From assembly GCF_000219625.1 (NCBI RefSeq), contig NC_018216.1:1488001-1552000 (forward strand): 64,000 nucleotides of DNA, written 5' to 3'. This DNA comes from Zymoseptoria tritici IPO323 (lineage: Eukaryota > Ascomycota > Dothideomycetes > Mycosphaerellales > Mycosphaerellaceae). The translations under genes were made by a program, and so were the position numbers. Below the pieces are notes generated by a model. It ran no database searches. It saw nothing but the letters and a program-made list of their open reading frames with translations, and was not told the DNA's origin. Below, piece by piece: positions 37,231-43,913 of this stretch; the first letter of the stretch is position 1, and each line of letters starts with the position of its first letter.

Positions 37231-39151
37231 ATGAAGTATGTTCTGGTATCTGGAGGTCAGTCATATTCCGAGGACTCGAGCTGGAGTTGAAGATCGAGTA
37301 TTGACAATGCCTCTCAGGTGTGATCAGCGGCGTCGGGAAGGGCATCATTGGTATGTCTGCTCCTCACTCGTCTGCGCATGAGAACCACATTGACCGAGTC
37401 TCTCCAACCTTGCAGCCTCATCCGCAGGCCTGCTCCTCAAAACCATGGGCCTCAAGGTCTCTAGCATCAAGATCGATCCTTACATCAACGTCGACGCTGG
37501 TCTGATGAACCCACGCGAACACGGTGAAGTCTACGTTCTCGACGACGGCGGCGAAGTGGACCTCGATTTGGGCAATTACGAGCGCTATCTCAACATCACC
37601 CTGACTCGACAGAACAACATCACGCTGGGCAAGATTTACGAGAGGGTCATTTGGAAAGAGAGGAACGGAAAGTATTTGGGTAAAACAGTGCAAGTGGTGC
37701 CGCACGTCACAGGAGAGATTGAGGATTGGATTGAGAGGGTTGCAAAGGTGCCGGTGGACGACACTGGTGAGGAGCCGGATGTGTGCATTGTGGAGTTGGG
37801 AGGCACCGTTGGAGATATCGAGAGCATGGCATTCGTCGAGGCATTGGCAGAATTGAGGAGAAAATGCGGCAGGGACAACTTCATGCAAATCCACGTTTCG
37901 TACGTGCCGGTGGTGCATGGCGAGCAAAAGACGAAACCAACACAGATGGCCATCAAAGCCGTGCGCTCGGCTGGTCTGATCCCAGATCTCATCGCATGCC
38001 GATGCGAGAAACCTCTCGAAGCCGGCGCCATCGACAAGATCGCCCGTTTCTGTCAAGTCACGACAGCAGAAGTCCTGGCCGTCCGCGACATGCCTTCGAC
38101 GTACCAAGTTCCGATCCTCCTCCACGAGCAAAATCTCGTCTCCCTCATGACCTCCACACTCCGACTGGACGACCTCCCTCGCAGCCCTGCTCTCCAGAAG
38201 AAGGGAATCCGGATTTGGGAGACCTGGAAGCAACTCACCCTCGGTCTCGAACACATCCGCGACGAACTCGAAATCGTGCTTGTGGGCAAATACCTCGATC
38301 AACCGGATGCTTACTGTTCTGTCATCAAATCACTCGAACACTCGGCCATGTTCTGTCGGAAGAAGCTCAAGGTGCTGAACGTGGACGCTGAAGCGCTGGA
38401 GAAGCACACGTCAAAATCCGATCCGGCTGCCTTCCACAAAGCATGGCACCAAGTTTGCACCGCTGCGGGCATCCTCATCCCCGGAGGTTTTGGCGGAAGA
38501 GGCACGGAAGGCATGGTTGCTGCAGCGAACTGGGCCCGTGAGAACAAGACGCCCTACCTCGGCGTCTGTCTAGGAATGCAGATCGCAGTCATCGAATACG
38601 CCCGCAATGTCTGCAACATTCCCTTGCCTGTCGCCACTTCGTACGAATTCGATGGCGCGGACAAGGACCGCATCATCATCGACATGCCAGAGCACAATCC
38701 TGGTGAGATGGGCGCCACGATGCGATTGGGTATCAAACCAACATTCTGGCAACCCGGCTCAGAAACTTCAAAACTCCGCGCGCTCTACGGTCACGGAGAA
38801 TCGATCTCCGAACGCCATCGTCACCGGTACGAAGTCAACCCGGACTACATTCCGCAACTCGAGGAAGCCGGTCTTGCGTTCATCGGCAAGGACTCAACCG
38901 GCGTGAGGATGGAAGTCATCGAACTGAAGGACCATCCGTGGTTCGTCGGCGTGCAATACCACCCCGAGTACCTTTCAAGAGTGCTGGAGCCAAGTAAGCC
39001 GTATCTGGGTTTCATTGCGGCGAGCGCGGGCATGCTCGACGAGGTGTTGGAGAGGAGTCGGGACAAGAGTGGGAGGAGTAGTCCGAATGGAGATCTTTAT
39101 GACGATGCGCGGAGGGTCAATGGTGGCGCTAAGGAGAAGGTGGTGATTTAG
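37231..39151 (+). CDS. URA7: CTP synthase
   Basis: Makes CTP from UTP, ATP and glutamine, the last step of de novo pyrimidine nucleotide synthesis; forms cytoplasmic filaments in many eukaryotes. Exons 37231..37255, 37318..37350 and 37416..39151, introns of 62 and 65 nt; 597 residues. The joins give MKYVLVSGGVISGVGKGIIA, then SSAGLLLKTMGLKVSSIKID, the canonical N-terminus with the ATP-binding loop. Synthetase block: GEVYVLDDGGEVDLDLGNYE; glutaminase domain: TPYLGVCLGMQ with the nucleophilic Cys, and VQYHPEYLSR with the catalytic His/Glu pair. The first donor (gtcagt) is slightly unusual. The last ~35 codons exist a second time, decayed, at 43.8 kb (separate entry). Confidence 0.96.
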
Positions 39152-39498
39152 AAAGGCTTGTTGCACAGAAAACAGTGTGGACTTTGGAGTCAGGCGTAGG
39201 TGGTGAGTACAAATTGGTTGAAGCATTGGCGGAGTTTTGGAGGAGCGCAAGGACCGTTCGGGAGCCAAAGGGAGGATCATGGATGCTTGCTCTAGCGTTC
39301 ACATGGAGAAAGCGGCAGATTATTGAAGACCCTGATGCTAATGGACAAACATGTCAATCGACGAGTGGCAAACTACATTGTCCAGCGCAGCCCAATGAAC
39401 AATAGTAAGATACCGACTGTGACAGTATTCAAGGTATCCATAGCGAGAAGTGCTGCGTTCTGCGCATGATTAATCGTCCGCTGCTCGAGAACCGACGC
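39152..39498. other. Intergenic, convergent 3' ends of CTP synthase and the DUF7580-type gene
   Basis: Contains the 3' UTR of CTP synthase. The short string gtcaggcg(t/c)agg, near 39189-39201, recurs at about 43941-43952 behind the decayed CTP synthase fragment, so the duplicated segment may extend into this UTR. Confidence 0.5.
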
Positions 39499-41204
39499 TC
39501 AGAGTATTGCAGCGGTTCGGGTCACTCGATCTGTCAGATCTCCGAACTCTGCATCAAATGCAGAAGGCATATGTCCAAGGCGCCAGCAGTCGCTTACAGC
39601 TCTCGCGTAGGCAATGGGCAAATCATGCGCCTCGGTCTCCATGAGCTCGTTCAAGAGGTTCGCCAAGCCGGTTGTAGAGATGTGTGTTGGATCTCGCAGG
39701 CCGCTGCACGGCTTATTGGTGTACAATTCGATGAGGAAAATGCCGAGCATAAACAGAGCTGCGCCCTGCATGGCGGGTGCGGGAGTTCTGTCCAGCATGT
39801 CAGCACAGTAGGGCATGACAATCACGGGAGCTTACTGCAAAGCCGTTGAGACCTGGTCAAGGCCAGTTCGAAGGCATAGCAAAGGAGCTTTCAACGGGAG
39901 CGTCCCGGGGTCCGTGTCGTTGAACTTGATATCGTCCGCGGCCCAAGCTGTGGTCATGAAAGGTGTTCCATACAATAGCTGCACCCACGAGGTGAATATG
40001 GCAGCGGTCTGTAGTCGGCTTGCCCTGGGCACAGTCTTTCCGAGCATACCACGCGCGGAGATGAGATTTAGTCGATTGTGGTGCGTAGAAAGCCCAGAGC
40101 CTGGCTGGGGGATGTAGTTTCCTGTCAGACAAGGCTGACCTCTGAGATCCAGATGTAGCTCAATACATTGTTGTGGTTGGACCAATGTCTGGATTAGTTT
40201 CCAAATATCTTCAATGTCGGCAGGAGTTCCGCCGTGCTGGGGGCTCAGATCATGGACTGCCTCTGTGTCTGATACGTGGAAATTGGCCTGCTTCCAAGAA
40301 CTCTGATCGTGGAAAGCGAGGAGGTATCTTCGTGCAATGTGAGCGCCAGAACGCTGACTGGTTCACGCATAAGAACACTGACCTTGCTGCCTGCGGCATA
40401 TGTTCTCTCGCCACAGTCCCGGAATCCAGTAGAATCGCGAATTCGACTGATCTCGTGTGACGAGCGGAGGCGGTGGCTCGCTCGATTTCATGAGCGAGAG
40501 CTTTCAGGTGATGTCTTTGGCGTTGCACTTGGTCAGATGCATCCTGCACTCTCTCGTTATGTTTGAGGTTCTGCCAGATTTGGTTGTTCTTCAATCGATT
40601 GCTCAGTGAGTCGATATCTGTCGCGAGTGATGTGAATGCAGATTTGATAGCCTTGTGTTTGAAAGTGAAGCGAAACCGTGTCTGGACTCGAGATGAACCA
40701 CTACTTGGTGAGCGGTGCTGCTTTACGATGATATCAAGCTGCTCATTCGACATCTGTCCCATCACGTGTCAGCTCAGGACGATATTGCGCGATGAGATTA
40801 GCCGTCCTGCATACCTCGTCACGACTAGGCCAGAGCCCTAAAATAATCACGACGGCTTTGATGTCATTGCAGATACCTTGCATGCCAGCTTGGAACAGTT
40901 GGTAGTTTTCTCCGTGCTTGGATCGGAGTTTGCTGGCCAAATGAATATGTGTTGGCGTACTCCAGTCCTCTGTGAGCAGGGTTCGGAAATCGCGCTCAAT
41001 CTTTTCGATAGGCATGCAACCGTGGAGCATCGTCTTGATGATGACTTCGAGGTTGTCGCGATGGCCTCTCAGAGCACATACGTATCGAGATATGGCGATA
41101 TGAGCATGCCAAAATGTCTTCACTCGCGGCTCTACGGCTTCCCAGCCTTCGAGGACAAGCAAGCATACTGGAATAGCGCCGAGTACCACTCCAGCAACTT
41201 CCAT
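39499..41204 (-). CDS. DUF7580-type protein: helical N-terminal domain and pseudokinase-like C-terminus
   Basis: Four exons on the minus strand: 41204..40815, 40753..40383, 40327..39836, 39787..39499; introns of 61, 55 and 48 nt with gtatgc, gtcagt and gtaagc donors; 513 residues. It opens MEVAGVVLGAIPVCLLVLEG, the usual start of fungal HeLo-like/DUF7580 proteins, and the first 230 residues are helical. The last part has ASRLQTAAIFTSWVQLLYGT with PFMTTAW, DDIKFND, and AALFMLGIFLIELYTNKPC, which recalls helix F and nearby segments of protein kinases but lacks the catalytic Asp motifs. By analogy with fungal cell-death proteins and MLKL-like architectures this could be an incompatibility or immune-type protein; that is inference. 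It is divergent from the next gene, with 201 bp between starts. Confidence 0.8.
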
Positions 41205-43677: not shown

Positions 43678-43805
43678 CTGACGTTCGACTGTCAAGTCCT
43701 TCGGTACAGTCACTGAACCTGCAGGGACGCACGAATCCTTGCATTCTTGACTGCGAAAACCAATCGCTTGATCTCGGCCAATGCTCTCGCGGGTTTTGAT
43801 ACTTT

Positions 43806-43913
43806 TGCTGCCCGATAAGGTGTTTGAGAGGAGTCGGGACAAGAATGGAAAGAGTTGTCCGAATGGAGACCTGTAGGACGACGCAGGGCGCTGAGGAGAA
43901 GGTGATCATCTGA
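43806..43913 (+). pseudogene. Decayed second copy of the 3' end of CTP synthase
   Basis: Aligns with 39041-39151, the last ~35 codons of CTP synthase. Identical blocks include gagaggagtcgggacaag, tccgaatggaga and gaggagaaggtgat. It has an in-frame TAG at about 43873-43875 and a deletion of about 15 bases before the final gctgaggagaaggtg; it ends tga where the gene ends tag. No other part of CTP synthase is recognisable upstream beyond about 43806. The copy lies just beyond the accessory gene pair, which is therefore bracketed by the intact and the decayed gene end. Confidence 0.85.

Follow-up and report, generated by a model that had tools for sequence, protein, structure and literature searches.

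A head-to-head gene pair with a DUF6590 gene lies between the working 3' end of CTP synthase and a decayed copy of that end in Zymoseptoria tritici

Results

The 3' end of CTP synthase recurs downstream of two accessory genes

The locus described here lies in a 64,000-nucleotide window of the Zymoseptoria tritici IPO323 genome (contig 3, NC_018216.1, positions 1,488,001 to 1,552,000; coordinates below are those of the window), in which the gene for CTP synthase is followed by two divergently transcribed accessory genes and then by a decayed copy of its own 3' end. The features are as follows, with CDS standing for coding sequence and UTR for untranslated region.

37231..39151, plus strand: CTP synthase, 597 residues; exons 37231-37255, 37318-37350 and 37416-39151
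39033..39200, plus strand: the duplicated stretch in its intact form, 119 bp at the end of the CDS and about 49 bp of 3'UTR
39499..41204, minus strand: partner gene, a remote DUF7580 relative of about 511-513 residues in 4 modelled exons
41204-40815, 40753-40415, 40353-39836 and 39787-39499, minus strand: exons of the partner gene (exon 2/3 junction slightly different in the strain protein)
41205..41405, no strand: upstream region common to the head-to-head pair, 201 bp
41406..43677, plus strand: DUF6590 gene, probably single; N-terminal half from 41406 to 42179 or beyond, C-terminal half containing DUF6590, with a match at 42664-43644
somewhere between about 42062 and 42520, plus strand: intron(s) of the DUF6590 gene, borders approximate
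43809..43954, plus strand: decayed CTP synthase 3' end; 43809-43913 from the CDS, then UTR sequence to about 43954

A first-pass annotation, made from the sequence alone, had claimed that the end of CTP synthase recurs in the same orientation with a stop codon and missing bases. Repeat alignment, shuffled controls and a genome search all bore this out. The stretch 39033-39108 recurs directly at 43809-43884 as 76 ungapped nucleotides matching at 84%, and the alignment then continues with gaps to the stop codon; the copied part of the CDS is the last 119 bp of CTP synthase (39033-39151), which recurs at 43809-43913. The copy carries a Tyr-to-stop change and frameshifting gaps of 4 and 10 bases. 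The alignment scored 104; the mean over 200 crude shuffles was 25 and the highest of them 35, and none of 300 dinucleotide shuffles reached the observed score. When a 241-base query over the CTP synthase end was searched against the genome (39,686,251 bases, 21 contigs), it was found at two places in 39.7 Mb, itself and the copy, which rules out a genome-wide repeat or a transposon piece.

Of the borders first proposed, the end of the CDS part at 43913 stands; the repeat starts at 39033/43809, not at 39041/43806, and the similarity also runs into the 3'UTR. It extends past the stop codon to about 39200/43954 (~40-50 bp of 3'UTR), the post-stop score being reached by 5 and 9 of 300 shuffles under two scorings; beyond these points no similarity was detectable (100 and 211 of 300 shuffles). 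Upstream of 39033, where the score was reached by 27 and 130 of 300 shuffles, nothing detectable had been copied, in agreement with the earlier claim that no other part of CTP synthase is duplicated. Because the duplication took the gene end and its 3'UTR together, it speaks for an event at the DNA level. The idea that the copy belongs to a longer duplication, now decayed and extending as far as the DUF7580-like gene, was ruled out, since no similarity is detectable beyond about 39200/43954. Repeat-induced mutation left no clear sign as a source of the decay, C-to-T or G-to-A changes making up 7 of the 18 substitutions. Within about 110 bases at each border, the best candidate for a border inverted repeat or target duplication was a 9-base inverted match, taken as chance.

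To gauge how often such pairs occur, seven stretches of ~10 kb from the same genome were sampled, six from elsewhere and one around another DUF6590 gene. In one of the seven, AT-rich sequence taken for repeat DNA contained a dispersed pair of 95 nt matching at 94%. Two further loci, L037 and L038, each held one pair of 94-116 nt (72-80%) between paralogous genes. The other repeats inside the 64-kb window lie nearly all within one repetitive gene at 58-62 kb.

The two genes between the CTP synthase ends

That two accessory genes lie between the ends was likewise confirmed by the gene models: a gene on the minus strand (41204-39499) and one on the plus strand (41406-43677) stand head-to-head, 201 bp apart, with a base composition like that of their neighbours. 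Pfam scans covering the insert (its six main open reading frames, ORFs) and the spliced partner returned DUF6590 and one match below the cut-off. By sequence one gene is remotely related to DUF7580 and the other encodes a DUF6590 protein, and the two look like incompatibility-type genes.

Three proteins among 7994 candidates scored reached E up to 0.01 in the search for relatives of the partner protein. Its relatives are P0143 of Z. tritici strain 1E4, 98% identical, and P0144/P0145 of Cercospora beticola and C. kikuchii, full-length at 47%. The 1E4 protein belongs to a cluster of 5 members, and its UniRef name, a partial one, refers to a prion-inhibition domain. Presence in a second Z. tritici strain and full-length relatives in Cercospora suggest that this middle gene is probably old. 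No Pfam match over the cut-off was found in the window's partner protein, and DUF7580 had no match in either the window or the 1E4 protein; the C. kikuchii relative P0145 matches DUF7580 at 23.4 bits, below the cut-off of 27. The DUF7580-type label given at first therefore holds for a remote relative and not for a member of the family. A genome search with the 1E4 protein found this locus alone, in three pieces, and DUF7580 itself occurs over the cut-off at eight other loci in the genome. The predicted structure of the partner was unusable (mean predicted local distance difference test, pLDDT, 33.7), comparison with PDB sequences gave noise, and for gene order in Cercospora the partner locus tags were not found in papers.

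The plus-strand gene matches DUF6590 with E 1.1e-45 (155.8 bits against a cut-off of 27). Its two halves are probably one gene, because P0121, a 672-residue relative, matches both at 34%; the gene may be a broken allele. The search for its relatives saw proteins up to about 674 residues, and strain orthologs annotated as longer may be missed. P0121 and P0127 are two different DUF6590 proteins, perhaps both from one 5937-base contig. In the predicted model the DUF6590 domain forms a MazF/CcdB-like barrel, with a domain pLDDT mostly of 79-98 and dips to 64-67 (whole-model mean 65.8, predicted template-modelling score 0.50); its predicted shape resembles that of bacterial toxins that cut RNA. The catalytic residues of Escherichia coli MazF are Arg29 and Thr52. 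In DUF6590, Arg107 and Thr/Ser126 are present in 22 of 22 sequences, and strand order and motif suggest that they may correspond to the catalytic Arg and Thr of MazF.

A sequence-profile link between DUF6590 and MazF failed, with an hhalign probability under 1% from a thin MazF profile. PemK was absent among the best 25 of the 30 families listed for the DUF6590 profile comparison, and the same profile gave only noise against PDB sequences. No paper of the literature searched names DUF6590, and no paper title there was on point for fungal MazF-like proteins; the available portion of PMC7180214 does not name the catalytic residues. In E. coli K-12 (L040), mazF lies two genes from the CTP synthase gene pyrG, with mazG between them, which we take as coincidence.

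Head-to-head partners at other DUF6590 genes

The genome holds at least six DUF6590 genes, a second search adding none. All six stand head-to-head with a long opposite-strand frame, with ATG-ATG gaps of 201, 697, 513, 380, 434 and 406 bp; a divergent neighbour is expected by chance for roughly half of all genes, and the five partners outside the window are unannotated open frames. One coiled-coil-like family provides the partner at 4 of the 6 genes, where the coiled coil was judged by eye and family membership by pairwise phmmer. These coiled-coil-like partners have no Pfam domain over the cut-off, and no MazE-type Pfam match was found in the partners, all of them long divergent frames. Searched against the genome, one member produced nine matches (E up to 0.01), which fall into three clusters and lie no further than 6.7 kb from DUF6590 domains; a second member produced four matches, in the same clusters, and neither search found the family anywhere else. 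The clusters of DUF6590 with a coiled-coil-like partner are:

C4:2.216-2.229 Mb (L039)
C4:1.267-1.272 Mb (L037)
C10:0.350-0.357 Mb (L038)

The C4 and C10 clusters hold extra partner copies. The only dispersed DNA similarities at the other DUF6590 loci are between such partner paralogs, over 94 nt (80%) on C4 and over 116 nt (72%) on C10, and on C10 the paralogs sharing the 116-nt similarity flank the DUF6590 gene on either side. A genome search with the partner of the DUF6590 gene at C3:3.43 Mb matched no sequence but its own, and neither it nor the window's DUF7580-like partner is detectably related to the coiled-coil-like family. The C3:3.43 Mb locus (L019:1557-5658) holds the closest DUF6590 paralog, also head-to-head with a long frame; Z. 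brevis P0123 resembles its DUF6590 protein, by eye. Among the 6 DUF6590 and 8 DUF7580 loci found, no further DUF7580/DUF6590 pair occurs, in a search blind to remote DUF7580 relatives like the window's own; the only chromosome common to both sets is C4, where they lie 368 kb apart.

Age and direction of the duplication

Comparison with other fungi was made through proteins, the fungal DNA being that of the window's own genome. The intact end and the copy differ at 10 of 34 third codon positions and at 8 of 71 first and second positions (Fisher test, p 0.028; 0.040 if the stop codon is left out). With 10 of 34 third positions changed, the bracket is apparently old. Some of the divergence resembles that between coding sequences, which would fit a period when both ends were coding; the test is weak. 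In P0002, a metagenome relative whose CTP synthase core is identical at 490 of 524 residues, the tail reads AEDKVII; the copy has AEEKVII, the window gene AKEKVVI and strain 1A5 AGEKVVI. The Glu and Ile of P0002 are thus kept in the decayed copy and lost in both Z. tritici alleles seen (window and 1A5). The split between the two ends is inferred to have happened in this lineage and to predate the split between the two strains.

The first-pass annotation had proposed that a segment carrying the two genes inserted here with a replacement gene end and left the displaced original end to decay. The bracket itself and the incompatibility-type look of the genes bear out part of this proposal; the Glu and Ile of the copy and the concentration of changes at third codon positions speak for the insertion with a replaced end. 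Several observations weigh against it. Aligned with P0002, the copy matches at 2 differing residues, as the proposal predicts, and the intact end, not the copy, at seven others (one of them the stop), although seven residues private to the copy are expected if the copy decayed. Both ends have Asp-Lys where P0002 has Glu-Pro, so that they look like each other's closest relatives. The middle gene is probably old, judging by its homologs. No duplicated housekeeping end was found at the four other loci (~9-10 kb each) that hold the other five DUF6590 genes, and the Pfam scans of the insert found no endonuclease or transposase domain. This last result also speaks against the further suggestion of an integrative or homing-like selfish element.

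The closest anatomical parallel comes from fungal mitochondria, where, according to the available portion of PMC3630166, mobile ORFs with gene carboxy-termini occur at Allomyces atp6 and at Glomus atp6, atp9, cox2 and nad3, the older end copy being reported as not expressed for atp6 and cox2. The arrangement there is the same as at our locus, in that a working end, an insert and an older end copy follow in one orientation and two 3' ends flank the insert. Our locus differs in that the gene is nuclear, no endonuclease was found, the insert consists of two head-to-head genes and the ends agree at Asp-Lys. This shared anatomy and the two P0002 residues kept by the copy favour a homing-like capture, in which a selfish cassette brought a CTP synthase end from a foreign lineage and displaced the resident one. 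The lack of a homing endonuclease domain, Asp-Lys in both ends and the apparent age of the middle gene make this improbable.

The same Asp-Lys agreement favours a plain partial tandem duplication of the CTP synthase end, followed by separate arrival or rearrangement of the two genes, with nothing mobile and no replaced end. The insert without a detectable mobility domain, the four other DUF6590 loci without a duplicated housekeeping end and the neighbour-like base composition of the pair agree with it as well. However, it needs two events at one spot, and the excess of third-position changes suggests that the copy was not decaying from birth, although such changes can also have arisen on the intact branch and the p value of 0.03-0.04 is modest. 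We rank this course of events second, almost level with the reading preferred below.

A different role for the tail is suggested by Neurospora un-24/het-6, described in the available portion of PMC3618301. There, as here, an essential nucleotide-metabolism gene with a variable C-terminus stands beside incompatibility-type genes. By this precedent the locus would be an allorecognition supergene, and the CTP synthase tail itself the recognised polymorphic part. The window protein and that of Z. tritici 1A5 (P0001) differ at 2 of 597 residues, both in the tail, in line with this idea. However, a change of two residues falls well short of un-24, where the tails differ strikingly, the two alleles seen here are not strongly divergent in the tail, and CTP synthase tails vary widely among the fungal proteins listed anyway. 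The available portion of PMC3618301 mentions no decayed end, unlike the situation here, where any such function is putative. We consider this reading very unlikely.

A possible two-gene module anchored at an essential gene

Tentatively, and with less than even confidence, we prefer to see the locus as an old two-gene module lying between the working CTP synthase end and its relic, in which one event duplicated the end and the pair is toxin-antidote- or allorecognition-like. A single recombination or repair event in this lineage would have doubled the final ~170 bp, with the pair coming to lie between the copies. If, for example, a DNA piece with the pair and a CTP synthase end crossed over once with the resident end, the result would be a full gene, the insert and a 5'-truncated second end running on into the old downstream sequence; partial tandem duplication and then insertion would give the same layout. 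The upstream copy would have stayed the working end while the downstream copy decayed. If fold and gene order are a guide, the pair may act as a toxin-antidote or allorecognition module, with the DUF6590 protein as a potential RNase-like or other MazF-fold effector that the divergently transcribed partner could restrain or activate.

The predicted DUF6590 fold and the two-gene organisation resemble type II toxin-antitoxin systems of the MazEF/PemK kind, as may the placement of an Arg and a Thr/Ser. The pair differs from them in being head-to-head and not an operon, in a large partner unlike MazE and in the lack of a sequence-profile link, and its activity is a prediction. Adjacent HeLo/HeLo-like and NLR gene pairs of ascomycetes (available portion of PMC9815663) are also similar, with neighbouring genes of which one is named in UniRef by a prion-inhibition domain; at our locus no NLR was found, and the main text of PMC9815663 contains neither DUF6590 nor DUF7580.

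It is a more doubtful step to generalise that DUF6590 is a eukaryotic family of MazF-fold effectors in head-to-head modules with a dedicated, mostly coiled-coil-like partner, acting as toxin-antidote or allorecognition units of which one is anchored at an essential gene by a duplicated end. If the pair is a toxin-antidote-like module, the uncharacterised fungal DUF6590 family gains a biochemical hypothesis open to testing, namely that its proteins cleave RNA or kill under the control of a partner, and the partner genes would be candidates for the antidote. The bracket would correspond, in the nucleus, to the gene-end captures of mitochondria and would link an accessory pair to an essential gene.

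Neighbouring open reading frames

Downstream of the relic, a long, repetitive, Ser/Thr-rich plus-strand ORF (45056-48400), possibly for a cell-surface protein, has no Pfam match at E up to 0.01. A minus-strand ORF of 1370 residues (57957-62069), in which weak Pfam matches to knottin toxins look like composition artefacts, contains repeat units of 30, 36 and 90 bases.
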